Assembly: GCA_944322945.1 (NCBI GenBank) | Contig: CALUQN010000016.1 | Location: 1-51,313, forward strand | Direction: 5' to 3' | Source of the DNA: Candidatus Gastranaerophilales bacterium | GTDB taxonomy: Bacteria > Cyanobacteriota > Vampirovibrionia > Gastranaerophilales > Gastranaerophilaceae | DNA length: 51,313 nucleotides | Position numbers and translations under genes: made by a program | Notes under the pieces: generated by a model | Database searches by the model: none | Seen by the model: the letters and a program-made list of their open reading frames with translations, nothing else | Told to the model about the DNA's origin: nothing | In this document: positions 12,883 through 42,553 of the stretch, piece by piece | Layout of the letters: each line of letters begins with the position of its first letter | Numbering within the stretch: position 1 is the first letter of the stretch

Positions 12883-14388
12883 ATGAGTGTAGAAAAGGTT
12901 AATTACAACAGCATATTGCAGAGTAAGGCACGGCCTGAGAGACTAAATGCATCCATAGAACCGGGCTCCGCACAGAGAAATCATTATTTGAATTTTACCG
13001 GAGCGAGAGCCGCGGCACAGCCGATATCAATGGTATCAACACCGGAAATTAAAGAAGTCCTAATGAAATTAATGCCGTCAATATTCAGAGGCATGCAAAA
13101 ACTAAAAAACAGCATCGGGGAATTTCAAAACATCGTAATTAACTCACTGGGTACCGGTTTAGTTGCACCAATATTAATCAAATATAACTTTTTATCAAAA
13201 ACAGACGAGGACACGAGAACATATACAGCCTGGAGACAGCCTATATCGGCAGTTCTTGCGGTTTTAACGCAGGCTCTGATTACTATTCCGTTTGACTTTG
13301 TAATCAACAAAATGGTGAATAACGGCGAGTTTGGAATAAAATATAACCTGACATTCGCGCCGGATGAAAAACTACTGAAAAAAGAAATTAAAGAAAAAAA
13401 CAAACACAGACACCTTTCCAAAAAACAGCTGAATGATATGGTAAAAGAACAAAAAAACAAACAGCTTGAAGAGGTTGTTAATACACTCTTAACAGAAAAC
13501 AAAATAAAATTCAGCCAATACAATAATCCAAATCTTGTTGCTTTACCGGAGGATGAACTGAGACAACTCGCGCTTGATACTCTTCAAGAAGAATTAAATG
13601 TTGAACAAAGTGAACTTAAAAGAAGTTATAAAGAAAAAACACCGGCAAGATTACAGCGTACTGATTTCTTCAGAACTCATCCGGAAGAATCACTTAAATT
13701 TCTGAACGAAGTTGACGCACTCATTGACAGTGCTAAAAACGACAAAGATTTGAAATCTAAATTCAAACGTAAACTAAAAGAATTAAAACAAATGAAAGCA
13801 GATCCCGAATACCTCACAATGATGCAGGAAATTCGCGACCGACACTCATACCACGACAAAAAAACAAAACAACACGTACCTTTAAAAGAAATAACAAAAC
13901 TAAAAGTCAAAGGTATGATTGAAGACCACTCAACATATTCAATATTCAAAGATTTCGCATCTCTCCAACAACAAATCACCGACGAAGGAGTAAAACGCGT
14001 AAATGAAATTGACGGAGCGATAAAAGTACTATCACAAGCAATAAAAGATATTAAAGAAAATCCTAAACTAACAATAAACGAAGTCTATGAAACAATAAAA
14101 CAGCAAATAGAAGAAAAAGGTCTTAAATCAAGACTTGAAGACTTCAAACTGCCGAAAGAAATGGTAAAACGGCTTGAAAAAATGGTCAAATCAAATGTTT
14201 CAGCACTAAAACAGATGTCCGGATTAGTCGTTTCATTTATGATGCTTCCGGTAACCTGCGCATTACTGAACTGGACATACCCGAGATTTATGGATATCGT
14301 ATTCCCGAACCTTTCTAACAAAAAGCACGACACAGAATCCAGCAACCTCATAGAAAGAGCGACAAAGAAGGGAGGGATTAGCGCATGA
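12883..14388 (+). CDS. Lineage-specific membrane protein with NFTG motif and coiled coil
   Basis: Not assigned to a known family. The start is the ATG at 12883 because AGGGA lies eight bases upstream; an in-frame GTG at 12865 has no such site. The N-terminal 40 residues are disordered-looking and end in YLNFTG (37-40), a motif I associate with many Gastranaerophilales proteins. Then come helices and a hydrophobic segment near 115-140, a long Lys/Glu-rich region of about 250 residues predicted as coiled coil, and a C-terminal membrane segment (SGLVVSFMMLPVTCALL). The stop overlaps the next ATG by four bases. The perfect palindrome CTATATATATAG lies at 12844-12855 upstream. Probably a membrane partner of the next gene. 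Confidence 0.75.
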   Translation: MSVEKVNYNSILQSKARPERLNASIEPGSAQRNHYLNFTGARAAAQPISMVSTPEIKEVLMKLMPSIFRGMQKLKNSIGEFQNIVINSLGTGLVAPILIKYNFLSKTDEDTRTYTAWRQPISAVLAVLTQALITIPFDFVINKMVNNGEFGIKYNLTFAPDEKLLKKEIKEKNKHRHLSKKQLNDMVKEQKNKQLEEVVNTLLTENKIKFSQYNNPNLVALPEDELRQLALDTLQEELNVEQSELKRSYKEKTPARLQRTDFFRTHPEESLKFLNEVDALIDSAKNDKDLKSKFKRKLKELKQMKADPEYLTMMQEIRDRHSYHDKKTKQHVPLKEITKLKVKGMIEDHSTYSIFKDFASLQQQITDEGVKRVNEIDGAIKVLSQAIKDIKENPKLTINEVYETIKQQIEEKGLKSRLEDFKLPKEMVKRLEKMVKSNVSALKQMSGLVVSFMMLPVTCALLNWTYPRFMDIVFPNLSNKKHDTESSNLIERATKKGGISA

Positions 14389-15161
14389 TTAAACCCGTCG
14401 GCATAGATACAGCAATCCACACAATAGTAAAAGGCGTAAGAAAAGCAGGCTCAACCGCACTCGATTACGGGATTAAAAAGCCGCTAAAAGTCCTCTCAAA
14501 CGCAAAATTTATGGACACTATCTGTGATTCATATCAAAAAGAAAAAATGAACGTTATAACCGGTATCGGCGTAGGTTCAATTGTTCTAAAAGACGGATAC
14601 GGGTGCTATCTGTATGTAAAACAGAGCTTGCACAACGATAAAATTCCGGAAGATAAACGTAAATTTGTTGCTGCGCTTGACTTAACCAACGGCGGGTTGA
14701 TGATACTGACACAGCTTGGAATGTTCTTTACAATTTCAAGACCCGCGGTCCAGAAAAAAATGTTCAATGCTCTGTTTGGCAAAACCTTCTGCCGTGCAGC
14801 TAAAAAGAGTAATTTAGAAATTCTATCCCACATGGATAAAATAAACGGCAAAGTTCCAGGCAAAAAATTCCACACAGCATACAACCAGATAGAAAAAGAT
14901 ATGAACTCCGTATTCGGACACCTGGTAGGGCTTGCAGCCTCAACAATACTTGCAAAACGTGTCATAGTTCCGTTCATTGCAACACCGCTTGCTGATAAAG
15001 CTAAAGCGTGGATGTGCAGAAATGACAAACCTGATAAAGTCCATAAAGATACAACAAACACTTACAACAAATACATCCCGGCAGTAAAACTCTCGGAAAA
15101 AGCAACACAAACCTCTACAAAATTATTGAACAAATTCGGCATTAAAAAGGATGCCGCATAG
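14385..15161 (+). CDS. Lineage-specific membrane protein, coupled to the preceding gene
   Basis: Not recognised. 258 aa with at least three hydrophobic stretches: around 55-75 (TGIGVGSIVLKDGYGCYLYV), 95-120 (GGLMILTQLGMFFTI) and 180-205 (LVGLAASTILAKRVIVPFI). The C-terminus is basic. The ATG sits inside the stop of the preceding gene (ATGA), with GGAGGG a few bases upstream, so the two products are probably made in fixed ratio and may form a complex. A strong terminator follows. No catalytic motif visible. Confidence 0.75.
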   Translation: MIKPVGIDTAIHTIVKGVRKAGSTALDYGIKKPLKVLSNAKFMDTICDSYQKEKMNVITGIGVGSIVLKDGYGCYLYVKQSLHNDKIPEDKRKFVAALDLTNGGLMILTQLGMFFTISRPAVQKKMFNALFGKTFCRAAKKSNLEILSHMDKINGKVPGKKFHTAYNQIEKDMNSVFGHLVGLAASTILAKRVIVPFIATPLADKAKAWMCRNDKPDKVHKDTTNTYNKYIPAVKLSEKATQTSTKLLNKFGIKKDAA

Positions 15162-27703: not shown

Positions 27704-29728
27704 TTAACTGCCGCTTGTTGAAATATCTATATTTGTAAGCCTTGAAAACTGCGCTGCAACTTCGTAAGGATAAAACTCAAACTTTTTACCGATAATTTTG
27801 TCCTTGCTGAGTTGTTTAACCTGCATAATATATTTTTCCATATTACTAATCATCTCCGGATGTCTTTGCACCCAGTGTCCGAGACCGGTTGAACTTTTGC
27901 TTGTATTGCAGTCTTTGCACATAACAACAAGATTTTCATATTTATTTTCAGGATAACCTATTCTGCTGTTTTTCTGACGTTTTGAATTGTATTTTGACTT
28001 AGGATCAAGGTGGTCGACAGTTGCCAGAGAGTGATTAAAAATATACTCCGCCATAATTTTTAGAGTTGATTTACCTTTATACGAAACGGATTCCGGCGGT
28101 ATTAGCACAATTTGTCTTGCATACTCATTGACAATATTTCGATAGCAGGTTGCCCAAAATTCCCGGCGAATATCATGGTTAACAGAGCCGGCAAGTTCTG
28201 AAAGAATATCGTGATATTTTTCAAGCGGGAATAATTTTTCCGGTCGGAGGTTGAGAGAGAGATTATTTGCCTGAGAAATAAATCTACGGACAGCCGCAGC
28301 CTCTTCCGGCTTCAGGTCATAAGCTTCTGATATATCTTCTACATTTTTAATATTCTCAGTCAATGTATCCTGCAAGTTTTTGTATGTAAATACCTTTAAA
28401 AGCTTTTCCATACCGGATTCAGAGATAACGCTGTGTTGGCTGAGATTTCTTTCAAATTCCTGAATTAAAGGGACATATTTGGGCTTAATAACCTCGCGGT
28501 ATTTATGAAAAATCCCTAGTAAATCCGGCATAGTTTCAGAGTCTTGAATTTCCTGATAAATTTTTGCTTTTTGCTCGTGGGTAATAGTTTTCTGACCGCA
28601 GGACGCACAGCAGATACCCGGAATATCAGTGAGAGGGAACTCAACATAGCGTGGAATTTTCAAGCCGGTTTCCTTTAACAACGCACGCAAATCAGGTTGA
28701 AGATTATCAGGAGCAAAACGGTTATTGAAATTTTTTATTACGCTGTTTTGCAGACGAATTGGATAAGAGCGATTTTCATGTAAATCACCTGCAAGAGCCG
28801 CCCTGCAAAGTTCATAAATATGGTTATAATAAAAATGTTTTTTCAAATCTTTATTACTTAAATTTTTCCCGGTTACCTCGCAATGCTTACAGGTCAGCAT
28901 GATATTGTTGGTATCTGCCGGGGCCTTGTCTGTAACTATACTTGTATCTGACTTTGAATAACCGAAAAGATTTTTTATAAAAATTTTAGATAATGAGGTT
29001 TCGTTACCACGCTTTTGTTCAAAGAGATATTCATTAAAGAAGGAATCTCTGACTGCGGTATTAAGCCGCATATAGATTTTATTTTTTTGAGGCGATTGTA
29101 ATTGAGAGACGGAATTTTTCATAGTCTTTGAAAATTCCTTGTAAATTTTTACTCTTTCAGGTGTATTTTCCGGAATAAGTGCAACAGCATCTTTACAAGA
29201 AGAAAGTATTGCAGAATCGTGTTCATTTAAGTCACCCGATTGCAGAAGTTTATCGAAATCAATGAGCATAAACCTATAAGCATCATCGGATTTTTGCTGC
29301 ATATTTTTTTTACAGAGTGCGAGCACTTCATCCGCGGTAGAGTCAAAATTAGCATAACCTACGTGCTTAACTTCCGCAACAATATTTGAGAACCTCGGAT
29401 TGATAAAATCTTCATATTTATTAAGAAATTTAAAAAGATTATTAACCGATTTAATTTTGTCCGCCTCGAGCTGAAGATCGTTCATCTCGTCAGCGGAAAG
29501 CATTTTAGTGCCGCAATAAGGGCAGTGAAGATTTTTTAAAGACTTCAAATCATTAATAAGAGCTACCTGTTTGTCATCCTTCGCGCAAAAATTTACCGGC
29601 AAATAATAAGCAGAGGGCATTTCAGGGCGAGGTCTCTGATCATTTTCACTCAAAACATCTTTGTATTGCGGGGTATTAGCAAACACCTGGGGCCTTAAAA
29701 ATGATAAATTTACAGGTAAAACTTTCAT
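27704..29728 (-). CDS. HNH nuclease-domain protein with duplicated zinc-ribbon modules
   Basis: 674 aa from the ATG at 29728 (an ATG three codons earlier is possible). The N-terminus contains YYLPVNFCAK (41-50), close to the NFTG-type motif seen elsewhere here. Residues from about 69 hold CPYCGTK followed by a helical module (LFKFLNKYEDFINPRF); from about 385 the pattern recurs (CASCGQK...LLGIFHKYREVIKPKY), so the protein carries an internal duplication. A third Cys pair (CKHCEVTGKN) lies between. Near residue 575-620 an HNH domain is seen: TVDHLDPKSK, then NKYENLVVMCKDCNTSK, with the zinc Cys pair and Asn. Probably a DNA or RNA nuclease; target unknown. No methyltransferase or immunity gene is adjacent. 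Confidence 0.8.
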   Translation of the reverse strand: MKVLPVNLSFLRPQVFANTPQYKDVLSENDQRPRPEMPSAYYLPVNFCAKDDKQVALINDLKSLKNLHCPYCGTKMLSADEMNDLQLEADKIKSVNNLFKFLNKYEDFINPRFSNIVAEVKHVGYANFDSTADEVLALCKKNMQQKSDDAYRFMLIDFDKLLQSGDLNEHDSAILSSCKDAVALIPENTPERVKIYKEFSKTMKNSVSQLQSPQKNKIYMRLNTAVRDSFFNEYLFEQKRGNETSLSKIFIKNLFGYSKSDTSIVTDKAPADTNNIMLTCKHCEVTGKNLSNKDLKKHFYYNHIYELCRAALAGDLHENRSYPIRLQNSVIKNFNNRFAPDNLQPDLRALLKETGLKIPRYVEFPLTDIPGICCASCGQKTITHEQKAKIYQEIQDSETMPDLLGIFHKYREVIKPKYVPLIQEFERNLSQHSVISESGMEKLLKVFTYKNLQDTLTENIKNVEDISEAYDLKPEEAAAVRRFISQANNLSLNLRPEKLFPLEKYHDILSELAGSVNHDIRREFWATCYRNIVNEYARQIVLIPPESVSYKGKSTLKIMAEYIFNHSLATVDHLDPKSKYNSKRQKNSRIGYPENKYENLVVMCKDCNTSKSSTGLGHWVQRHPEMISNMEKYIMQVKQLSKDKIIGKKFEFYPYEVAAQFSRLTNIDISTSGS

Positions 29729-29800
29729 ACATACCATTAAACCACATCAAGAAATTTTTTTGCTAGTAATAATTAACTTTTAATAATAAAATAATAATTA

Positions 29801-30317: not shown

Positions 30318-33300
30318 TTATTTCATTGATTTAATAACTTTTTTGGTTTGCGGAGTCGGGCGGGTTGCCTTTTTGTTCGGTTGTTTGTCGCCGACCATCC
30401 AGCGGAAGCCTAACTGCAAGCCCACACCGTTTCTGCCGCCATTTGTAATGTATGTCTGGAAAAATCCGGTAAATCTTTCGCCCCAGGATTTTCTGACGCC
30501 TACACCGTATTTAACAAACGGTTTTACACTCAATTCAGGAAGTGATACCTGATTTGCCATAAAATGCGTATTATCCATTATATTCCATATCATACTTACG
30601 CTTCCGTAAGGCTGCCAGCCGTTTTTCAGGTTGCCAATAATCTTAATCCCCGGTTCCAAATGGATTGCGTGCAACGGATCAGAACTGATTGCAACCCCTG
30701 ACGCGTTATGGTAATCAAATGTATTTACATACGAATATGACATTGTAAAATTCGGCTGGATAATCAATTTACCTTTTGCAAATTCCACATTGTATCCGGA
30801 TTTTGACGCGATACCAGCCATAAGCATTGTGAAGTTATCCTGTCCGAAGAAGGTTTGTGCTTCTCCTGCACTTGCTCCGGTGTTTGCGGTTAAACCTGTA
30901 AAGAAGTTCCCTTTATAAGCCATACCGACTACGCCAAGAGTACCGCCGTTCTGGTAAATTCCGACACCGTCATAAGACTGATGGGAACCGTTATACCCGC
31001 CATAAACACCCCAAATTCCATCCCAGCCGTGTCCAAGGTCGTACATTTCTGATTCAGCTCCGAAGAATGAGCCGTATGCTACGTTGGAAACTTTCGGGCC
31101 ATTATCAAGCGATACATTTTCAAATGTTGCATAAGGTCTGAACCAGCCGGCTTTATTTTCATAACGTGTCACTGTCGGGTCAAAGACTATATTGGAATTT
31201 TGTGCTGCTGATGCGTATTTATTTCTCATTTTCATAGCCTGACGCTGCTCTTTTGTCATCAGCATATACATATCCATATTGCGGAAAGCTTCATCATAAG
31301 AATGCAGCTGGACAAGATATCCGCCAAGCTGTGCCGCTACAGGAGATGCCATAATACCAGGGTTCACATCATCGTATGAAGGATTATATCCGCCCTGCGC
31401 CGTAAAGCTCAGGAAGCCGTTTGCATAATCCACCATATATTTTTGGATTGGTCCCATTGCAGTGCGCGCTGCATCGTCAAGTAATACATATTCCGCGATG
31501 TTTCCTGATACTATTTGTGTTTTTACATCATTGACAAGCGCATCGCTTACAAGATTCAGGCTGCTGCCGCCGAGCACAAGATGTCCGTCGTTTGTAACCT
31601 TAACATTGTTTGCAGAAATCTTATCAGCCTGTTCTTTGGCTAAATCAACATCAAGATAAAGGCTGACGTCGCCGTCAATTTCAAGTGTTTCGAAGTTAAG
31701 GTTTTCGATACTTGCAGGGTCTGGATTAGTAGTCCAGCTGCCGTCTTCTTTTTCAATAGCGGAGGTATTTTGGAGATTGATAGACGTACCATCGCCGAAT
31801 GCACCGGTTTGAAGTTTTCCAAACTCAGTACCTGCTGCGACTGCCAGAATACCTTGTTCTACAGCTATGTTACCGTTGAAGCCAGAGTTGTCGCCGGAGA
31901 GAACAAGCGTGCCAGAATTGTCTTTTCCGATTGTACCGGTACCGGAAATATTTGTTAATTGAGCGTTTTTAGAACCTTCAATCACGATACCTGTATCTGC
32001 GGCAAGGTTAGTTTTTCCGCCAAAGAATGTTGTATCATCAGTATTGTAGATAACATTACCGGCGTTGATGTTCGCTGTACCTTTGAATTGTGAGTTATCA
32101 CCTGTCAAGGTCATATCAAAATCACCGTCTTTTGTGATTGCTGAGTTTGCACCGCCGGCAAATGCGCCGGTTGTAATTTCTGACATATCTGCATTAATTT
32201 TCACATCTGCAGCATTAGCGATTGTGGTTGTACCTTTGATATAAGTATCATCTGCGGAATTTTGGTCGAAATTCAAAGTTCCTGCCGAAACAAGAAGATT
32301 ACCGGTGAAGTTTTCATTACTGCCGGAGAGTTTCAATTCGCTTTCGCCGGTTTTATTCAATATTCCGGAGCCTGCAATACCGCTTGAAATAACATTTTTG
32401 CCATCAGAGGCAGCAATATAATTAACCTTTGCATTCTCGCCGTCGATATAAATATCATTAGCGCCGGCGCCGTTGTTGTTGTTTGCAAAAGTTACATCTT
32501 CAAGATTGACAGTGCCAGCGTTTGTATAAATCGCACCGCCTAGACCCGTTGAATTATTATCGTGAATATTTGCGTTTGTAATTGTTGCGACAGAATCTGA
32601 GGTATGACTCAAGACTGAACCGTTTCCGTCTTTATTTGCGTGCGAAATTTCGACATCGTTAATTCTCAGATCTGTATTATCATTCACCACATCAAACATA
32701 GAATATTTGTTGTCCCCGTTTATGTGAGAAATTATGGAGCCGTCGGCTTTTTCTATACCTTGAACGGTAAAGATACCGTCTGCAGTTTGACCGAGATGAG
32801 AACCGATTACGTATTCATCTTCTTTCAGGAACTGGAAGCCTCTTATATCACTGCTATCTTTTACGTTTTGAGAACCTAAAGAGAACTCATCTGCGACATC
32901 AACAGCTGTCAGGATAACCGATTGTTTATCTTCACCGGTTGTAACCGTGTAGTGGTAAACATCCGTCGCCCAATCGTCAAGTGTCAAATCACTCAATTTC
33001 AGCCCGCCGCCAAGTATTTCAAATTCAACAGACTCAGGCGGGGTAGTCAGTCCGTCATCATAGAACACATCCCTCAAATTCAATGTTGTTAGAGTCAATG
33101 TGCCGGAACCGTTTGTTGAAATAATTTTATCTGACTGATGACCGTCTTCGGTATGGAATGCCAAATCAACACTCAATTCTGACCCCTCTTCAGCGTTCAG
33201 GTTGTCGAATGTATAAGTTTTAAACGCATCATCTGCCACATCAATCAGTGCATCTTTGATTGTGAATTTACCTGTATTGTATTCGGTAGTTGTCAGGTGG

Positions 33301-33647
33301 ATAGTGCTTCCTCCGTCAAAGATAACTTCTTTGTCGCCTGTCTGACCGGCAAGCGCACTGCCGAGTTCATAAGTTCCATCCTTGAATGTAACAGAACCGG
33401 TGTTTACATCATCTGCGAAAGAAATATTTGATGTTGAATCAAGCACATAAGTTTGACCTGCAATAGCGTTATAGACAATGTCACCACCGTTTGCAACCAT
33501 TTTAAAATCAAATGCGTTATCATCAGCTGAATCCGGATAAGCATTAACGGTCAAAGTTCCCTCGTTTGCGTAGGCAGTACCGTTGAATTTTTCACCGTTG
33601 TCTGCCATGTAAGTGAAGTTCAAATTACCTGAGCCGTTTTTGTTCAA
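30318..33647 (-). CDS. Autotransporter adhesin, C-terminal part with beta-barrel (downstream half of a frameshifted gene)
   Basis: The frame is open from 33722 and the sequence before the nominal TTG at 33647 (NGILNYSTDTEVGLANVSGDG) continues the repeats of the upstream half, so this is not an independent gene. The passenger portion has PATR-type strands (SGTLVLSGDNSGFNGN, TGDNSQFKGT) and Pmp-like marks (GGAIYTN, FANNN). From about residue 830 on lies the autotransporter barrel (AGWFRPYATFENVSLDNG, GIWGVYGGYNGSHQSY, VKYGVGVRKSWGERF) ending in a last strand GVGLQLGFRWMVG. After it stands a basic 22-residue tail, which is unusual because the aromatic end of the barrel normally is the C-terminus. 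No ribosome site is seen at 33647. A terminator follows. Confidence 0.85.
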   Translation of the reverse strand: MNKNGSGNLNFTYMADNGEKFNGTAYANEGTLTVNAYPDSADDNAFDFKMVANGGDIVYNAIAGQTYVLDSTSNISFADDVNTGSVTFKDGTYELGSALAGQTGDKEVIFDGGSTIHLTTTEYNTGKFTIKDALIDVADDAFKTYTFDNLNAEEGSELSVDLAFHTEDGHQSDKIISTNGSGTLTLTTLNLRDVFYDDGLTTPPESVEFEILGGGLKLSDLTLDDWATDVYHYTVTTGEDKQSVILTAVDVADEFSLGSQNVKDSSDIRGFQFLKEDEYVIGSHLGQTADGIFTVQGIEKADGSIISHINGDNKYSMFDVVNDNTDLRINDVEISHANKDGNGSVLSHTSDSVATITNANIHDNNSTGLGGAIYTNAGTVNLEDVTFANNNNGAGANDIYIDGENAKVNYIAASDGKNVISSGIAGSGILNKTGESELKLSGSNENFTGNLLVSAGTLNFDQNSADDTYIKGTTTIANAADVKINADMSEITTGAFAGGANSAITKDGDFDMTLTGDNSQFKGTANINAGNVIYNTDDTTFFGGKTNLAADTGIVIEGSKNAQLTNISGTGTIGKDNSGTLVLSGDNSGFNGNIAVEQGILAVAAGTEFGKLQTGAFGDGTSINLQNTSAIEKEDGSWTTNPDPASIENLNFETLEIDGDVSLYLDVDLAKEQADKISANNVKVTNDGHLVLGGSSLNLVSDALVNDVKTQIVSGNIAEYVLLDDAARTAMGPIQKYMVDYANGFLSFTAQGGYNPSYDDVNPGIMASPVAAQLGGYLVQLHSYDEAFRNMDMYMLMTKEQRQAMKMRNKYASAAQNSNIVFDPTVTRYENKAGWFRPYATFENVSLDNGPKVSNVAYGSFFGAESEMYDLGHGWDGIWGVYGGYNGSHQSYDGVGIYQNGGTLGVVGMAYKGNFFTGLTANTGASAGEAQTFFGQDNFTMLMAGIASKSGYNVEFAKGKLIIQPNFTMSYSYVNTFDYHNASGVAISSDPLHAIHLEPGIKIIGNLKNGWQPYGSVSMIWNIMDNTHFMANQVSLPELSVKPFVKYGVGVRKSWGERFTGFFQTYITNGGRNGVGLQLGFRWMVGDKQPNKKATRPTPQTKKVIKSMK

Positions 33648-33700
33648 AATACCGTCACCGCTAACATTTGCAAGACCGACCTCTGTATCTGTTGAATAAT

Positions 33701-36700
33701 TCAGAATACCATTTTCGCCATATCAGTAAGACCTGCGATATAAATATTTTTACCGGCTTCGTATGTAAAATCAACACTACCGCCATCAATAGCCATTGTA
33801 CCAGTAAACAAATGATTATCGCCGGTCATATTGAGAGTGCCGTTATTGGTTTTAACCAATTGACCATTACCAGATAAATTGTTGATAATCTGGTCTTGAA
33901 TATCGGCAGAATTAACGATATCCATAGTAAGCTTGCTGCCAATATTAATTTCTGTGGAGCCACCTACGAATGAATCTTCACTGCCGTCAGCTGTATATTT
34001 AAGCTCACCTGCGGAAACTTTAAGAGTACCCAGCATATCTTTGTTATTTCCGTTGAGGGACAGAGTACCTGCGCCGGTTTTATTAAATGTGCCACTGCCG
34101 TCTGCCCTTGTTGCAAGACCGCTATTGATAATATTTTTATCAGATACTTCAAATGTTACTGTATTATTTGCAATATAGATATCATTTGCCACACCGTTTC
34201 TATGCGTATTTAATGTAGTTTTACCGAAATCAGTATCTTTGATATTCATATTGATTGCAGTGTAAATTGCACCGCCGAGTGCGTTTGAATGGTTGTCATC
34301 AAAGCTGCCGCCTGTGATATTAAATTCCTTGCTTAATACGTTACCGATAGCGCCGCCGTTGGCTGCTGATTTGTTACCGACAAAATCTACATTTGTAAGG
34401 TTGACTGTAGCATCCTGATTCATAGCGTAAATAACAGAGCCGTATTTAGTGTAGCCGTTTGTATCGCTTTCGCCTGCCCCGCGGTAAGCATCTTGAATTG
34501 TAACATTTGAGATTTCAAGGTTAGTAGCATTTGTGAGTTCAAAGAATGAGCCGTTTTTGTCGCCGTCAGCCATAGCTGCAACTTTGATAATTTTTACAGG
34601 ATTCCCGGCTTCATCTACACCATCAGTCACATTGGTTGCTTCAAATGTTCTGTCATCAGAGCCGTCAGCATTTTTGTATGTGTATGAATTATCATCTTGG
34701 TTATATTCAAGTCTGGTTTTCGCTGTATCTGCGTCAAGTACCAGATCTTTCAATTCACCTGACAGAACACTTTTGGTGCCGTTATTAACTGTACCGATAA
34801 TTGTGAAGTTGCCGGCTGCTGTGGTATCTAGGTCACGGTAAATATTGTAACTGTTGTTTCCGCTTGCATCAACGATAAAGTTAAACCCGCGGTTGTTGTG
34901 TTGTATGTCTTCACCTTGATAAATATTCAGGTCGCGCAGGGTATCAGTTGAGGACGGCCCACCGTAGGTGATTTCAATCCCTTTACCGGCAAGTGCGGAA
35001 TCAATCTCGTATTTATAAACGTTAGTTGCCCAGCTCAAGAGTTCCGTACCGTCATTGACTGCGAGCTGCAAATTATTACCGCCTGAAATAACCGGAATTA
35101 TGTTTTTGCCTGTGTATCTGAAAATCTGACCGTTGTCGTTTGTGATAAATACTTTTGTCAGATTAAGTGTTCCCTCGCCTGCTGTGGCATTGATAGTATC
35201 AGCGATAGGGTCTTGTTTATCATCAACATACAAATTCAAATCAAGCGAAATGTTGTTTGTACCTTGAGCTGCATTGAGGCTGTCAAACTTGTAATTATTA
35301 CCGGCTCTTGTGTTTGACAAATCAAGGGTTGAATTGTTCATTGTGATAGATCCGTTGTCAGCATGAGAAAGCGTGATATTTGAACCTGTAAAGTTCAAAA
35401 CATCATCAATCCCCGCCGTACTAAAGCCAAGGTTATATGTACCGTCGTTGAAGTTCAGGTTGTTTGATTTACCGGCTGCTGTAGTCCAGAACTTGTCAGC
35501 GATAGTAACCTTGTGGTTGTCAGCGTCAACATTAAATTGAGTATTTCCGTTGAGGTTGATATTTGCAAGGGTTTCATTAGAAAGCGTTCCATCGCCTGTA
35601 GTGTAATTAACAATAGCGTCTGCTATATTAACAGTTGCCCCCGCATTCAGACCGTAAACCTGATTGAAGACGAGAGTCCCTGCATTTACATTAATAACAC
35701 CTGTAAAATCAGCACCGTTGTCATTGCCTGTGAGGGTAAGCTGGTTGCTGCCAATTTTGGAAATTGTACCTTCGCCTGAAATGTCTGAGGAAATTGTGAA
35801 ATCAGCACCAGACATTTCCGTATAACCTGCAATTAATTCAGCATCTTTATCTATATTTATTTGCCCGTCTACAATATTACCGCCCTGGTATTTTACTACA
35901 GCATTATCGTTTATGTTCAATGTTACATCTTTATAATGCTCAAATACAACAGGAAAAATACCAGACCCCGCAGTTAACTCAACATCATTATTAACATTAA
36001 CAATTGATGATTCTGCTGTATATAACTTGGCAGTTCCATAGTCAAATTTTACGGTTGAATTTATAGCGTTATCAATGTTTACAAATCCCGTATTATTTGG
36101 ATCACTGTTCACATTAATAATGCTATCTTTGACATTAGAACCTGTAATGAATGTCGTAATATGAATATTTTTATCAGCAGCAGCATTCAAATTCAATATA
36201 CCGGAGTTCTGAATAGCGTTAACCGACATTATTTCAATTTGTGAATCACTTTTAGTAGCATTTATTGTCAGAGTACCGCTGTTATATATTGCAGGAAGAG
36301 AATTTTCTGAAGAAGACTGCATATGTGACATAATGTTTACATCATTCAATGTCACTTCTGCGCCGTCGTTATAGATAATAGAAGTATATTTTTCATCATC
36401 CATACTATATGGCATATGCTCAATCATTGAATTACTGATGGTAACCTGTGCATCATCTTTTGCGTAAATCACTCCGCCAGCACCTTTTGCGAAGTTATTC
36501 CTCAATTGAGAGTTAGTCACAGATACAATCGCATCCCCTGCCGCAGAAATTGCACCGCCGTTACCGTCAGCGTGATTGTCCTGCAAAACTACGTTATTAA
36601 GGGTAACAGTTCCGCCGGTTGCGCTCACGACTGCACCATTTGTGTTTGAAGATGCGCCCTCTGTCCCTGCATCAGCATTTGACGCAAGTGCATTTTGGAT

Positions 36701-39568
36701 AGTCAGATTTTCCAGAGTGAGAGTGGTATCTGCTCCGACTTCAAAGAACGAATGCGCGCCACCGCCTGAAAATACGCTTTCTGACGCTGCATCACTCTTA
36801 CCAGAAACTGTAAAGTTTCCGGCAAGAGTAGTTTCCAAATCTTCCTCAATAGTGTATACACTGTCTCCCACAAATACAAACGGGCGTGTTCCTGATACAA
36901 AGTGGTTTTGATATTTCAAACCGTTAGCCGCAATAGCCGTTGCGACAATAGACAATTCACTACCGCTCGCTGTTATATCATAGATATAAACATCCGACGA
37001 TTTTTGTCCGTTATATTCTGCAAAACCTAAATTTCCGCCATTATTATTTATAACAGTGTAAGTTTTATTAGTAACGGCGCCGTTATTACCTAAAATATTG
37101 ACGTCGTCAATTGTAAGCAAACCTGAAGAAGCTGCCCCTGCATTCAAAATGTCTGTTTGACCATCAGAACCTGAAGACAAATCAACATCAAGACTTATAT
37201 GATTTGTTCCGTCACTTTTTATACTGCCAAATGTATATGTGTTTGCTGAACCATCCAGCAAATTCAAAGCTGAATCCGCAGCCAGAGAAATTGCATGGTC
37301 TAAAGTTGTAACATTATCGCCGAGTGTTATACCGGCATTGCTAAAATTAATAACCTGTCCTGAACCAAAATTTGTATTGAGCGTAAAATCAGCATCGGAA
37401 AGATTTACAACATTATTTGAGCCTTCTGCGGCGATTGTATTATTTATAGTAACAGCGTTTTCTTCACCTCTGCCAACACCGTTGATAGAGAGTATGCCCT
37501 CACTTTTGAGGGTAATATTCTGGTTAAACACACCGCCTGTTATGTTGTTATATGTAAGGGAAGCCTCTCCTGTGTTACCCGAAAAATTCCGCTGGCAGTC
37601 AACAACTATATTGGCGTTTTCGCCAAAGAAAGATTTTCTGCCGTCAATAACGAGTTCGCCCCATTCTACAACAGCGTCACCGTTAAATGCAGAGTTGTCT
37701 CCTGTGAGAGTCAGTGCGCCACTTCCTGCTTTTTGAAACTCAGCCTGATTTTCACCGGCAACGGCTTCACTGATAAGGCTGCCAGTGTATGTAATATTTT
37801 CTTCGCCTGAATTTTCAAAGATAAACTTTGCACCGTCTGTGATAACCGTATCAGCATTGCCCCCGCCAAAATATACTTCATCACCGCCGTCGACCAAGAA
37901 ACGCATTGTACCGTCTTTTACATGGATGGTGCTGCCGATTGCCGAATAATCATCACTGAATGTTATGTAATTATCATTGTACTTGTATATATCAACATTT
38001 GCAGCATTGCTGCACAATATATTAATAAAGTCTGCGGCAGAAATAGTGTCTTCAGGATTTACAACAGGATTGTCCGAACCGGTACGAGCTGCAATATCGT
38101 TTTCAATAACTAAAGCAAGGTTGGAACCGTCAGACCAGTTTTTGGAGGTCGCGTTTGTAAGTGCGGCGCCAAGAGTATCCGTTTTATCAGTACCCTTTAA
38201 AGTCAACGTGGCGCCCTGCGCAACATTGAGAGCTCCGGTGTAATAGGCGCTGCTGCCGGTTGTTTCTGTGCCGTCAGTCAGGCTTTGCTTACCGACAAGC
38301 ACAAGGTTCCCGCCATTTTCAACGGTAATTTGAGCCGTATCATCCGCAGACTGAAGTCCGCTGCCGATTTCAGCTCTGCCGGTCACATTAATCACCGAAT
38401 TCGCAGTTGTATAAATATCATTCAGAGCTTCATCCTGATGTAGGTTATTTGAAAATATTACGTCTCCGAGATTTAACGTTCCCGTATTATATATGGCACC
38501 ACCGAGAGCTTCAGCGGAGCCGTTGTCTTCCATGGTATAAAATACTTGGTTGCCGCTAATATTTGTATCATCTCCGATAGTCAGGATACCTTCGTTGTAA
38601 AATACTCCGCCGTGGGCACTTGCCGTACTATCTCCGCGACCTGTGTTGTTATTTGTAATAGCACCTGCAATATTACCGGTTATTGTTGTCCCTTTAATTT
38701 CAAGCTCACCTGCATTATATATCATACCGCCGCGAAGAGTAGCAACAACCTGGTCATTGTTCATATACGTCCAAATTCTCTGACTGTCAGCAGTTGCCGC
38801 AACTTCATTATTGGAAATAGAGCCACCGGAGATTGTCACGGTACTATTCTCTCCGGTATTTCTGATTAAGCCGCCATAAATTTCTGCAACAGCATGCGGA
38901 GGTTCTTGAGTCACAACTGTAGTAGACATGTTATCCCGCACTGATTCAACAGCTATTTTATTTGAATCAAATTTTGAATTGTTTATATTCAAAGTTCCGG
39001 AATTATCAATAATACCGCCGTAAAGATATGAACGAGCTATTTCAGCACCTGAACGTATCTGCTTAAAATTCAATGTTGTCGAGTAAGTTGAATCAAAAAC
39101 ATTCAACACACCGGCGGAATTTTGAACAACACCGCCATATAATGAATATATTCTTGAATGGTAAGCATCATGCACGTCGCCGATAGTTGATTCTGTCTTC
39201 CAGTTCATATTTTGGAATGTAATATTAGCACCGTCGGTTTGCACGACATAATGTCCGTACAGTAAATCACCAGAAAACTCACTGACACTGGTATCATCTT
39301 CCCAGATACTGCCTGTAATTTCATTATTACCGCCGTCAATGACAACATTGACAGCTCCGCTTATACTATTTCTAAAATCGGCATCTTGCAAAGTTATAGG
39401 ATTTAAAACATTAAGAGTTGAACCGTCTGCATAATTAACAGAATTAACAAGACCTGCCTGGTCAAGAACATCTGCTGCATTTACGGCTAATCCGCCGAAA
39501 GTAATACTACCCAGAATAACGGCAGTACATAAGGCTTTAAGGCTGCCCCCTAAAAGATGTGTTGTCAA
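33701..39568 (-). CDS. Giant autotransporter adhesin, signal peptide and passenger (upstream half of a frameshifted gene)
   Basis: 1955 aa starting at TTG 39568, which is supported by a perfect AAGGAGGTG eight bases upstream and by a signal peptide starting there (hydrophobic LCTAVILGSITFGGLAVNA, cleavage near NAA). The passenger is a long Asn/Asp/Gly/Thr-rich beta helix: Pmp-type GGAI/FxxN repeats (GGAIYNTGTLNLGDVIFSNN, GGAISAAGDAIVSVTNSQLRNN, FVGNKSAANGGAI) and PATR strands (GSGALTLTGDNSAFNGD). It contains no barrel. It ends prematurely at GLTDMAKMVF; adding one A to the AAAA run (plus-strand TTTT 33712-33715) gives GLTDMAKNGILNYSTD and joins it to the next frame, making a product of about 3080 aa. 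Likely a surface adhesin; real phase variation, decay or sequencing error are all possible. Confidence 0.88.
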   Translation of the reverse strand: MTTHLLGGSLKALCTAVILGSITFGGLAVNAADVLDQAGLVNSVNYADGSTLNVLNPITLQDADFRNSISGAVNVVIDGGNNEITGSIWEDDTSVSEFSGDLLYGHYVVQTDGANITFQNMNWKTESTIGDVHDAYHSRIYSLYGGVVQNSAGVLNVFDSTYSTTLNFKQIRSGAEIARSYLYGGIIDNSGTLNINNSKFDSNKIAVESVRDNMSTTVVTQEPPHAVAEIYGGLIRNTGENSTVTISGGSISNNEVAATADSQRIWTYMNNDQVVATLRGGMIYNAGELEIKGTTITGNIAGAITNNNTGRGDSTASAHGGVFYNEGILTIGDDTNISGNQVFYTMEDNGSAEALGGAIYNTGTLNLGDVIFSNNLHQDEALNDIYTTANSVINVTGRAEIGSGLQSADDTAQITVENGGNLVLVGKQSLTDGTETTGSSAYYTGALNVAQGATLTLKGTDKTDTLGAALTNATSKNWSDGSNLALVIENDIAARTGSDNPVVNPEDTISAADFINILCSNAANVDIYKYNDNYITFSDDYSAIGSTIHVKDGTMRFLVDGGDEVYFGGGNADTVITDGAKFIFENSGEENITYTGSLISEAVAGENQAEFQKAGSGALTLTGDNSAFNGDAVVEWGELVIDGRKSFFGENANIVVDCQRNFSGNTGEASLTYNNITGGVFNQNITLKSEGILSINGVGRGEENAVTINNTIAAEGSNNVVNLSDADFTLNTNFGSGQVINFSNAGITLGDNVTTLDHAISLAADSALNLLDGSANTYTFGSIKSDGTNHISLDVDLSSGSDGQTDILNAGAASSGLLTIDDVNILGNNGAVTNKTYTVINNNGGNLGFAEYNGQKSSDVYIYDITASGSELSIVATAIAANGLKYQNHFVSGTRPFVFVGDSVYTIEEDLETTLAGNFTVSGKSDAASESVFSGGGAHSFFEVGADTTLTLENLTIQNALASNADAGTEGASSNTNGAVVSATGGTVTLNNVVLQDNHADGNGGAISAAGDAIVSVTNSQLRNNFAKGAGGVIYAKDDAQVTISNSMIEHMPYSMDDEKYTSIIYNDGAEVTLNDVNIMSHMQSSSENSLPAIYNSGTLTINATKSDSQIEIMSVNAIQNSGILNLNAAADKNIHITTFITGSNVKDSIINVNSDPNNTGFVNIDNAINSTVKFDYGTAKLYTAESSIVNVNNDVELTAGSGIFPVVFEHYKDVTLNINDNAVVKYQGGNIVDGQINIDKDAELIAGYTEMSGADFTISSDISGEGTISKIGSNQLTLTGNDNGADFTGVINVNAGTLVFNQVYGLNAGATVNIADAIVNYTTGDGTLSNETLANINLNGNTQFNVDADNHKVTIADKFWTTAAGKSNNLNFNDGTYNLGFSTAGIDDVLNFTGSNITLSHADNGSITMNNSTLDLSNTRAGNNYKFDSLNAAQGTNNISLDLNLYVDDKQDPIADTINATAGEGTLNLTKVFITNDNGQIFRYTGKNIIPVISGGNNLQLAVNDGTELLSWATNVYKYEIDSALAGKGIEITYGGPSSTDTLRDLNIYQGEDIQHNNRGFNFIVDASGNNSYNIYRDLDTTAAGNFTIIGTVNNGTKSVLSGELKDLVLDADTAKTRLEYNQDDNSYTYKNADGSDDRTFEATNVTDGVDEAGNPVKIIKVAAMADGDKNGSFFELTNATNLEISNVTIQDAYRGAGESDTNGYTKYGSVIYAMNQDATVNLTNVDFVGNKSAANGGAIGNVLSKEFNITGGSFDDNHSNALGGAIYTAINMNIKDTDFGKTTLNTHRNGVANDIYIANNTVTFEVSDKNIINSGLATRADGSGTFNKTGAGTLSLNGNNKDMLGTLKVSAGELKYTADGSEDSFVGGSTEINIGSKLTMDIVNSADIQDQIINNLSGNGQLVKTNNGTLNMTGDNHLFTGTMAIDGGSVDFTYEAGKNIYIAGLTDMAKMVF

Positions 39569-41024: not shown

Positions 41025-41100
41025 GCTCCCATCGTCTAGAGGCCTAGGACAACACCCTTTCACGGTGTAGACGGGGATTCGAATTCCCCTGGGAGTACCA
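41025..41100 (+). tRNA. tRNA-Glu (TTC), integration target
   Basis: Cloverleaf with acceptor GCTCCCA/TGGGAGT, anticodon loop CTTTCAC giving TTC, T-arm GGGGATTCGAATTCCCC, and encoded CCA at 41098-41100. It is the only one of the three tRNA genes here with CCA encoded. Its 3' end is inside the left attachment repeat, and the antisense integrase ORF ends within it. Confidence 0.96.
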
Positions 41101-42553
41101 TTTGATTATAAGACACCTTAAAGGTGTCTTTTTTAATGAATAGGCTTGAGATTTCAGCGGTTCGAAAATCATCTGAAAAATACATCAAACCTTTAGGAAA
41201 AATTAACCTCTGCAATCTTTGTTTCAAGTCTAAATCACCATTTTTCCATAATATATCAATATTGCTAATTGCCCTGCAGGCGTATTTAAGACACTTTGAT
41301 AAATCTTCGTCATGCACTTCAAATTCACGTAAGCGGAACTCCTGCTCTTGTATTTCCTCTGCTAATTGCTCTGTTTTGAACTTATAATCCTCCTCACTTA
41401 TTATTCCATCCAATCTAAAATCAATTAACTTACTCTTTTTATTTTTAAGTTCAATTAGTTTGTCTTGCACTCGTTTTTGCCTGTTTAATTTTACTGATAA
41501 TTTTTCGTTATAAACATCTTTCACTATTGTTTCAAATAAATTAAGTAAATCTCGTTCAGGTTTAATATAATTCAAATAATCTACAAACATTTCTTCTAAC
41601 CTTTCTTTTCTTATTCTGAAATGGATAGAGCAATCTTTATTATGACAGTGATAATATGGATACTTTTCTTTTCTACCTTTAGATTTACTACCTGTTAATG
41701 GTTGGTTGCAATTAGGACAGGTAATGAACTGTCTTAGCGGGAATTCGGGATTATTTCGCTTATATGCAGTAATAACAGGTTTTCTACCCTCTAAAATATC
41801 TTGAACTTTATTAAATTCAGCTTCTGATATTAATGGTTCGAAAATTCCTCTGATGGGTTCTTCCGACCATTCCTTTTTATACATATAACCATTGTAAAGT
41901 GGATTTTTCAGCATACGACATAGCATATTAGTATTAATCTTTAATCCATCATCAGCCATTATTTTAATTATTTGCACCTGCTGATACAAACCAGTTGCAA
42001 AAAGTTTAAAAATCTTTTTGATATGATGTGCAGTTTTGGGGTCTGGTTCAATGTTACCGTTTTTCATAATGTACCCGATAGGTGCTTTCCACATCCAATG
42101 ACCTTGTAAAAAAGCGGTTTTCATGCCGTTGGTTACTCTTTCTGCTTTTTGGTCATTTTCGTATTGAGCTAAAACTCCCATCAAATTTCGGGTTAATTTA
42201 TCGGTTGCAGAATTTCCGTTATTCTCTCTCGCAAATAAAACTCTAATATTTAACTTTGTAAAAAATCCCTGTAAGTCGTAAAAATCCTTGATATCTCTGG
42301 TTAATCTATCAATTTTCCAGATTATGATTGCATCAATATTCTTTTTGTTTGCAACACAAAATTTCATAAGATTTTGTAATTCGGGTCTATCCTGTGTTTT
42401 AGCACTTTCACCTTTTTCTACAAACACTTTTGACACCTTATACCCATTCATCTCAGCAAATGACTTACAGTCTTTTTCTTGACCTGCTAAACTGTAACCT
42501 TCTTCTGCCTGATTTTTCGTTGAAACTCTTGTATAAATAATTGCATTACTCAT
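41060..42553 (-). CDS. Large serine recombinase (integrase)
   Basis: Site-specific recombinase of the phiC31/TP901 group, which integrates and excises the element. Of the 497 aa, the N-terminal catalytic domain has the nucleophile S11 (IYTRVSTKNQAEEGYSL) and IWKIDRLTRD. The recombinase domain follows (APIGYIMKNGNIEP...NPLYNGYMY). The zinc ribbon has CPNCNQPL and YHCHNKDC. Then comes a Lys/Glu-rich coiled coil (about 355-430). The last about 13 residues (VLPGEFESPSTP) are read from the antisense strand of tRNA-Glu, so the C-terminus depends on the integrated state. SD-like GGAGAAA precedes the ATG. Confidence 0.95.
   Translation of the reverse strand: MSNAIIYTRVSTKNQAEEGYSLAGQEKDCKSFAEMNGYKVSKVFVEKGESAKTQDRPELQNLMKFCVANKKNIDAIIIWKIDRLTRDIKDFYDLQGFFTKLNIRVLFARENNGNSATDKLTRNLMGVLAQYENDQKAERVTNGMKTAFLQGHWMWKAPIGYIMKNGNIEPDPKTAHHIKKIFKLFATGLYQQVQIIKIMADDGLKINTNMLCRMLKNPLYNGYMYKKEWSEEPIRGIFEPLISEAEFNKVQDILEGRKPVITAYKRNNPEFPLRQFITCPNCNQPLTGSKSKGRKEKYPYYHCHNKDCSIHFRIRKERLEEMFVDYLNYIKPERDLLNLFETIVKDVYNEKLSVKLNRQKRVQDKLIELKNKKSKLIDFRLDGIISEEDYKFKTEQLAEEIQEQEFRLREFEVHDEDLSKCLKYACRAISNIDILWKNGDLDLKQRLQRLIFPKGLMYFSDDFRTAEISSLFIKKDTFKVSYNQMVLPGEFESPSTP
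41089..41103 (+). other. Left attachment repeat (attL) at the tRNA-Glu 3' end
   Basis: CTGGGAGTACCATTT covers the last 12 bases of tRNA-Glu including CCA plus three more. It matches CTAGGGGTACCATTT at 47504-47518 at 13 of 15 positions in direct orientation. Confidence 0.7.
41110..41134. terminator. Hairpin terminator between tRNA-Glu and integrase
   Basis: AAGACACC (41110-41117) / GGTGTCTT (41123-41130) with loop TTAAA, then TTTT. It lies inside the element and within the 3' coding part of the integrase; it would terminate the tRNA transcript. Confidence 0.75.

Follow-up and report, generated by a model that had tools for sequence, protein, structure and literature searches.

PEXEL and RxLR are host-targeting leaders of eukaryotic parasites, and MIX and RIX are N-terminal recruitment motifs of type VI effectors. 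Classical type III effector leaders are disordered and rich in Ser, Asn and Thr, contain few acidic residues and little Leu, and have no fixed motif. For the early flagellar (rod/hook) subunits, the parts of a study that deal with their export signals describe small hydrophobic N-terminal residues, a spacer and a Phe-led motif, with at least 19, and better 24–30, residues needed between the N-terminal signal and the motif (PMC8983047, eLife 2022).

The leader that we describe here begins P1, a predicted membrane protein of a Gastranaerophilales bacterium, and recurs on other proteins of its genome. In general, such leaders are unstructured, often start with M-[KRQ]-[ILV], end in [PVTIL]-[SN]-F-[TKSG]-[GSA], and are rich in Asn, Gln, Ser, Thr and Lys, a composition that is partly circular for the own-genome leaders because one rule used to call them selects polar leaders. 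As with PEXEL and RxLR, a variable N-terminal leader with one short motif precedes many unrelated proteins, but the motif is different, the carriers are bacterial, and no hydrophobic signal peptide was seen ahead of the motif in P1. MIX and RIX are likewise short N-terminal markers on otherwise unrelated proteins, with a different sequence. With type III effector leaders, the leader shares its type of composition and its disorder, and it differs from them by its fixed motif.

Gastranaerophilales are non-photosynthetic gut relatives of Cyanobacteria. The window, by which we mean the whole stretch of DNA analysed, consists of bases 1–51313 of contig 16 of a 2.12-Mb genome; gene calls throughout are the longest non-overlapping ORFs, taken from their first start codon. 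The features discussed below are collected in Table 1.

Table 1. Positions, in the window, of the P1–P2 gene pair, the parts of P1 and the HNH protein.
Feature	Position	Strand	Details
P1	12883..14388	+	501 aa from ATG 12883; alternative GTG 12865 gives 507 aa
N-terminal leader of P1	12883..13002	+	residues 1–40, ends LNFTG; pLDDT below 50 for residues 1–52
NFTG motif of P1	12991..13002	+	residues 37–40; Phe38 codon 12994–12996
Hydrophobic segments 1 and 2 of P1	13123..13305	+	residues 81–101 and 123–141; within the most conserved part
Helical domain of P1	13360..14142	+	residues 160–420
Hydrophobic segment 3 of P1	14197..14268	+	residues 439–462
ATGA overlap, P1 stop / P2 start	14385..14388	+	4 bases
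P2	14385..15161	+	258 aa, helical; hydrophobic segments around residues 94–122 and 180–198
HNH protein	27704..29737	-	677 aa, own leader; NFCA motif about 29582–29593

An earlier note on this DNA had proposed a coupled pair of large, NFTG-type membrane proteins. The two ORFs overlapping by ATGA are present as it described them, and P1 is large; P2, however, is of medium size and as a rule has no leader (one exception was seen, L006). The two genes are coupled. A P2 profile search of GTDB species genomes returned 212 stretches with a relative, and in the best 80 of these 212 loci P1 adjoins P2 without exception (80/80; 79 of the P1 proteins are full-length). Across the same 80 loci the gap between the two genes is −1 in 34 and −4 in 32, with other small values in the remainder, i.e., 66/80 junctions overlap by 1 or 4 bases. 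The nearest named records come from metagenome-assembled Gastranaerophilales. A P1 homologue (E ≤ 0.001) was found in 31 of the 59 genomes searched, own genome counted, and P2 was found in 38/38 genomes of the window's family (f1) versus 0/79 from other families of the class. Neither protein reaches the curated cut-off of any Pfam or NCBIfam model. The idea that P1 and P2 are paralogues was rejected (hhalign probability 0.4%, 24 columns). The 40-row P2 alignment excludes locus L146.

The AlphaFold model of P1 (mean pLDDT 76.9) is disordered over residues 1–52 and mostly helical in its remainder, and that of P2 (mean pLDDT 70.4) is helical. Between the hydrophobic segments of P1 lies a charged, mostly helical region, for which a long coiled coil had been suggested; a helical region is indeed found there, but residues of about 180–420 are modelled as several packed helices (pLDDT mostly above 85) rather than as one plain coiled coil. 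Neither P1 nor P2 has a Foldseek match in the PDB at E ≤ 0.001, and a search by sequence against solved structures gave no convincing relative for either, the top P1 match being a designed helical bundle (E 0.0044). Structure comparison of P1 returned mid-range helical matches only; the best match of its middle domain to BAR-like bundles (Z 8.7, rmsd 2.6 over 78 residues) falls in the range stated for unrelated helical models. A hydropathy scan of P1 and P2 found no Sec/Tat-type hydrophobic core in the first 30 residues of P1, in which the first segment over 1.2 (Kyte-Doolittle, 19 residues) begins at residue 81.

The NFTG that had been reported in P1 is present, at the end of a disordered, polar leader, and its Phe is kept constant while the remaining leader drifts. 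In a 38-row P1 alignment (40 rows had been prepared; L143, L146 and L152 were left out), the mean pairwise identity is 0.21 for residues 1–35, 1.00 at F38 and 0.70 for residues 79–146. F38 remains invariant when these three are included, and across the resulting 41 aligned P1 proteins it is the sole invariant column within the first 79 residues. The end of the P1 leader follows the pattern [PTVLI]-[SN]-F-[TSGK]-[GSA], which was picked in 78/79 full-length P1 proteins by a script that favours these residues. Among the 79 sites picked in this residue-favouring manner, the Phe is preceded by S or N in 54 and followed by T in 55, with G one residue later in 57. The Phe lies between residues 17 and 61 in 78/79, the one mispicked row aside; the P1 of that row (L146) has KTSFGK further along.

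The exact NFTG string is not what recurs. As a DNA pattern it has 70 matches in the genome versus 15 for a reversed control, with 9 of 30 inspected matches in frame in any ORF of at least 60 aa. At the protein level, exact NFTG within residues 4–60 is found in 3/384 proteins, P1 among them, versus 0.1–0.4 expected. We rejected it as a lineage signal, since it is too rare and its DNA matches are mostly out of frame. The earlier note's idea that proteins of this lineage share an N-terminal signal consequently survives in altered form: not NFTG itself, but a broader motif, greatly exceeds chance in the genome of the window, and when the motif frequency was compared with expectation using this broader motif, a chance-level frequency did not occur there. 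An unbiased search for gapped words enriched at N-termini was too noisy to use, its top words being unrelated.

The evidence for recurrence comes from a held-out test, in which a matrix built from P1 alone was applied to 718 other proteins in a sample of 848,803 bp of the window's own genome. At 13 bits or more, 12 N-termini match, where internal windows give 0.0 and shuffled N-termini 0.6; at 9 bits or more, the numbers are 36 versus 8.3 and 7.0, respectively. The corresponding Poisson probabilities are 2.6e-12 and 1.0e-12. No homology was found among the 12 strong matches by BLASTP at 1e-8; at least one of the 12 (C3:89431) lacks a polar leader and looks like a chance match. A second rule, requiring the motif together with a polar, acid-poor leader, called 33/718 own-genome proteins versus 5.2 expected, which implies some 5 false calls among the 33. 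These include an identified false positive, C2:23448, a flagellar protein of the rod type whose conserved ANFNT gave rise to the call. Such leaders precede many unrelated proteins above chance. Genes with a leader adjoin each other in 8 pairs versus 3.8 expected, a modest excess that 142/5000 permutations reach.

Beyond this genome, the composition-plus-motif rule gave 12/374 versus 5.0 expected in a genome of the same family (G009), 10/371 versus 4.1 in one of the same order (G046), and 1/347 versus 3.1 in one related at class level only (G058). In Escherichia coli K-12, it called 2/174, and no protein reached 9 bits with the matrix. Using the matrix alone at 9 bits or more, we found 5 versus 4.0–4.8 in G009 and 4 versus 4.8–6.4 in G046; since neither shows a clear excess, strong enrichment is limited to the genome of the window. 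A matrix scan of the best 80 of the 212 loci gave 23/1201 proteins at 12 bits or more, a count inflated by one syntenic family, and the conclusion therefore rests on the single-genome test. Family conservation in the syntenic set was 8/120 N-terminally positive versus 5/108 and 2/108 in control windows. In addition, we counted the DNA pattern for D-[ST]-V-S-F-x-G, which covers one flavour of the motif and was scored irrespective of reading frame. It has 66 matches versus 18 for the control in 38 f1 genomes, and none of the eight families of the class besides f1 has a significant excess (f8: 83 versus 100).

The proteins that carry the leader are of varied kinds. The earlier note had linked NFTG with a VNFCAK in the HNH protein of the window (HNH domain E 3.3e-5, above the Pfam cut-off), and the link proved right: VNFCAK is present at residues 48–53, and homologues read PVSFSG, PISFSG, PLNFRG, PINFSG or PVHFKG at the same place, before the first zinc-finger-like cysteines, which makes VNFCAK a variant of the motif seen in P1. 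A strict polar-leader rule rejects the HNH leader of the window but accepts 21/30 homologues of this protein, 18/23 FtsH-like proteins and 3/3 second nucleoside diphosphate kinases (NDKs) of the own genus; these counts refer to the best loci rather than to all homologues, and the rule is not blind, having been drawn up once these sequences had been seen. Among the counterparts, the strict rule finds 0/7 canonical FtsH and 1/27 other NDKs, the exception being that of G049, which begins MINRVNSQMNFGEY. Applied at residues 101–195, it finds 1/30 HNH-type and 0/23 FtsH-like proteins. Within the homologue set, L303 has the leader and L328 does not. A count of the loose motif was rejected as a homologue control because canonical FtsH also matches it (7/7).

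When 30 leader proteins (25 from the own genome and 5 from relatives) were compared with Pfam, seven had a family above the cut-off, namely, a CheR methyltransferase, a nucleoside diphosphate kinase, a protein with three AAA stretches, an ankyrin/GLUG protein, another AAA protein, an AAA-plus-M41 (FtsH-like) protein and a metallophosphoesterase. Of the two NDK genes in the genome, that at C1:116780 has the leader and the other lies at C19:2307; the FtsH-like gene of the genome that has the leader coexists with another FtsH-type gene (C2:170188). In addition, a GH77 glucanotransferase with a putative VVFGR leader, judged by eye, adjoins a gene for a soluble protein with the FlhA C-terminal domain (FlhA-C). 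No single operon was found to hold the leader cargo.

The signals of early flagellar export (PMC8983047) share several features with the leader: both are N-terminal, with a spacer that can be replaced and a Phe-led motif, and the lineage keeps the FlhA gate that such systems use. The leaders may also resemble them in having small hydrophobic residues close to the start. ILV occupies residue 3 in 0.48 of leaders versus 0.22 of other proteins (residue 6 has no excess). However, the motif [SN]F[TKSG][GSA] has no general hydrophobic residue at +4, unlike the early flagellar motif as given in those parts (FLTLL of FlgD). A hydrophobic +4 occurs in 0.56 of the 79 P1 proteins, versus 0.30 of HNH-type proteins (23/30 with a matrix site), 0.25 of FtsH-like proteins (20/23) and 0.31 of own-genome leaders (29/33). 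Moreover, the spacer is often too short by the spacing quoted above: the Phe is at residue 21 or earlier in 19/33 rule-called leaders, P1 itself mostly fitting the flagellar spacing. The cargo differs as well, consisting of enzymes and membrane proteins, whereas early flagellar signals sit on rod/hook subunits. Since hydrophobic residues at +4 are frequent in P1 alone and 19/33 leaders are short, we do not claim that these proteins are early flagellar substrates.

The flagellar-type apparatus of the lineage is nonetheless of interest as a candidate reader. The FlhA family is present in 79/79 genomes of the order, whereas flagellin is present in 22/79, and in 1/57 genomes of the window's family (f1). 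In 20 genomes, each of which also has flagellin, there is a high-scoring FlhA type; a second type is present in most genomes. The window's own genome retains FliE, FliF, FliH and FlhA type 2 by Pfam, and homologues of rod proteins, FliP/Q/R and FliI by BLASTP against G046; most of these gene names are our own assignment, with FliP confirmed by Pfam in G046. The hook protein of G046 and its neighbouring hook-cap-like gene have no homologues in the 40% of the own genome compared. FliE of the same apparatus has no such leader. Two published reports explain incomplete flagellar gene sets by a reduced genome or by the absence of motility (PMC3787301, PMC5877343).

The soluble FlhA-C paralogue, encoded at C1:68042–69514 in the own genome, combines an N-terminal part of its own with the C-terminal domain of FlhA. 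It is matched along nearly its full length in 38/38 f1 genomes, with no full-length match in 79 other genomes of the class, where, among the matches listed, the FlhA part alone was matched; a short FlhA-C frame is also present in at least 16/22 genomes of other families of the order, and no such soluble paralogue was seen beyond the order. By count, FlhA is absent from 34 sampled f8 genomes. Families f9–f12, f14 and f15 have FlhA, yet show no significant excess of D-[ST]-V-S-F-x-G. As far as sampled, the leader tracks the order and the soluble FlhA-C protein, not FlhA as such.

We favour, with a probability of roughly 0.6, the reading that the NFTG of P1 is part of an N-terminal leader that recurs on unrelated Gastranaerophilales proteins and that is a putative lineage-specific sorting leader. 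The leader would act as a short docking motif for a common receptor, and docking would direct a small percentage of the proteome to a single place. P1 and P2 would be a co-translated membrane-protein pair in which P1 bears the label. For the destination, two readings compete: an internal assembly site, and export through the flagellar-type gate kept by these mostly flagellin-less bacteria, perhaps via the soluble FlhA-C paralogue. The nature of the cargo suits the former, in which F-x-G would be an intracellular assembly tag by which cytosolic enzymes and membrane proteins dock on a scaffold, membrane domain or condensate specific to the lineage. The AAA ATPases, the FtsH-like protease, the second NDK, the CheR-type methyltransferase and, by eye, the GH77 enzyme are of kinds that are normally cytosolic or depend on cytosolic cofactors, and a predicted membrane protein, P1, bears the leader itself. 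We regard this reading as a tentative alternative that is credible but not probable, given that no scaffold candidate was identified and that the cargo is spread beyond any single operon. The same cargo speaks against a type III export signal, in which a filament-less flagellar-type gate (FlhA type 2 with FliP, FliQ, FliR, FliI, FliF, FliE and rod proteins) would read the leader, and the proteins would be released from the cell or delivered into neighbouring or host cells: it includes AAA and SAM-dependent proteins, and AAA ATPases would be odd as secreted proteins. The short leaders, the general lack of a hydrophobic +4 outside P1, and the families with FlhA but no significant excess (in a one-flavour, frame-independent count) point the same way. 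What argues for export is the universal FlhA of an order whose family f1 almost lacks flagellin, the apparatus kept in the own genome, the likeness to early flagellar signals, including ILV at residue 3, and family f8, in which the sampled genomes have no FlhA, G058 has no leader signal, and the pattern has no excess. On this evidence, we consider export unlikely. More doubtful still is a fuller scenario, in which the Gastranaerophilales basal body would have turned into a filament-less secretion machine whose soluble FlhA-C paralogue captures [SN]F-x-[GSA] leaders, such that several tens of lineage-specific proteins per genome (enzymes, AAA proteins, P1) would be exported or injected.

The leader might also set the half-life of accessory proteins, if a protease adaptor read it as an exposed degradation tag. 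A polar N-terminus that is exposed and disordered and bears a short conserved motif would suit an N-terminal degron, for which lambda O and ClpX offer an analogy, but the leader is also found on a protease, and we judge such a tag improbable. Very improbable, in our estimation, is an artefact of composition, by which Asn/Ser-rich N-termini would yield SF-x-G by chance or starts would have been called too far upstream. Loose regular expressions do match often, as canonical FtsH illustrates, but shuffled N-termini give 0.6 strong matches against the 12 observed, and a Phe that is invariant amid drifting surroundings, as in P1, is not expected of untranslated sequence. For P1 and the HNH-type and FtsH-like proteins, such an artefact is largely refuted.

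Among the matches listed in searches of the Gastranaerophilales and Melainabacteria literature on N-terminal motifs, secretion, flagella, export and protein sorting, we found no description of such a leader. What is known of these gut relatives of Cyanobacteria comes, to our knowledge, almost entirely from their genomes. The leader is found on roughly 4% of the sampled own-genome proteins (33 called less 5 expected, of 718), many of them of unknown family. If the sorting-leader reading is true, these hypothetical proteins would become one system, with one receptor to find; and if that receptor is the retained flagellar gate, this would explain why the flagellar export apparatus is kept in genomes that have no flagellin.

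The soluble FlhA-C protein, in which the FlhA C-terminal domain is combined with an N-terminal part private to the protein, was matched over near full length in all 38 of the 38 family genomes and, among the matches listed, in none of the 79 other genomes of the class Vampirovibrionia. Its gene adjoins that of a GH77 4-alpha-glucanotransferase, and we note a VVFGR stretch at the N-terminus of this enzyme.

Flagellin was found in one of 57 genomes of the family, and had no match in the genome that holds the basal-body cluster with FlhA type 2, the kind found in most genomes of the order. The high-scoring FlhA type, on the other gene run tabulated, occurs in 20 genomes, with flagellin in every one.

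Among the genes that carry the leader (a disordered polar N-terminus ending in a short motif), the second nucleoside diphosphate kinase lies ~2 kb from FliP/FliQ/FliR homologues, and the four-gene cluster ends with an FtsH-like AAA-M41 protein. In addition, the family at L086 has two leader-type motifs, TSFKG and VSFTG, close to its N-terminus.

Features of the window and of loci (L) from the genome searches; C1, contig of the window's own genome; G046, another genome of the order
Feature	Position	Strand
Soluble FlhA-C protein, 491 aa	L064:8042-9514 (C1:68042-69514)	-
GH77 4-alpha-glucanotransferase	L064:5937-7958	-
Second nucleoside diphosphate kinase, with leader	L066:16780-17253	+
Four adjacent leader-bearing genes	L161:871-7725	
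Basal-body cluster: FliE, FliF, FliH, FlhA type 2	L334:8194-14691	+
Conserved ~170 aa family, start MADLLSISSIRERIF	L086:3228-3749 and syntenic loci	- (L086)
Run with high-scoring FlhA type, FliP, FlhB-family gene	L336:6517-11541, G046	+
Very long ORFs of 1109 aa and 1955 aa	window 30318-39568	-
tRNA-Glu gene	window 41025-41100	
Serine recombinase ORF	window 41060-42553	-

Elsewhere in the window, the 1955 aa ORF starts with a signal-peptide-like stretch. The serine recombinase ORF and the tRNA-Glu gene overlap (together 41025-42553) and are followed by a low-GC stretch running toward the window's end; this whole region may be an integrated element.
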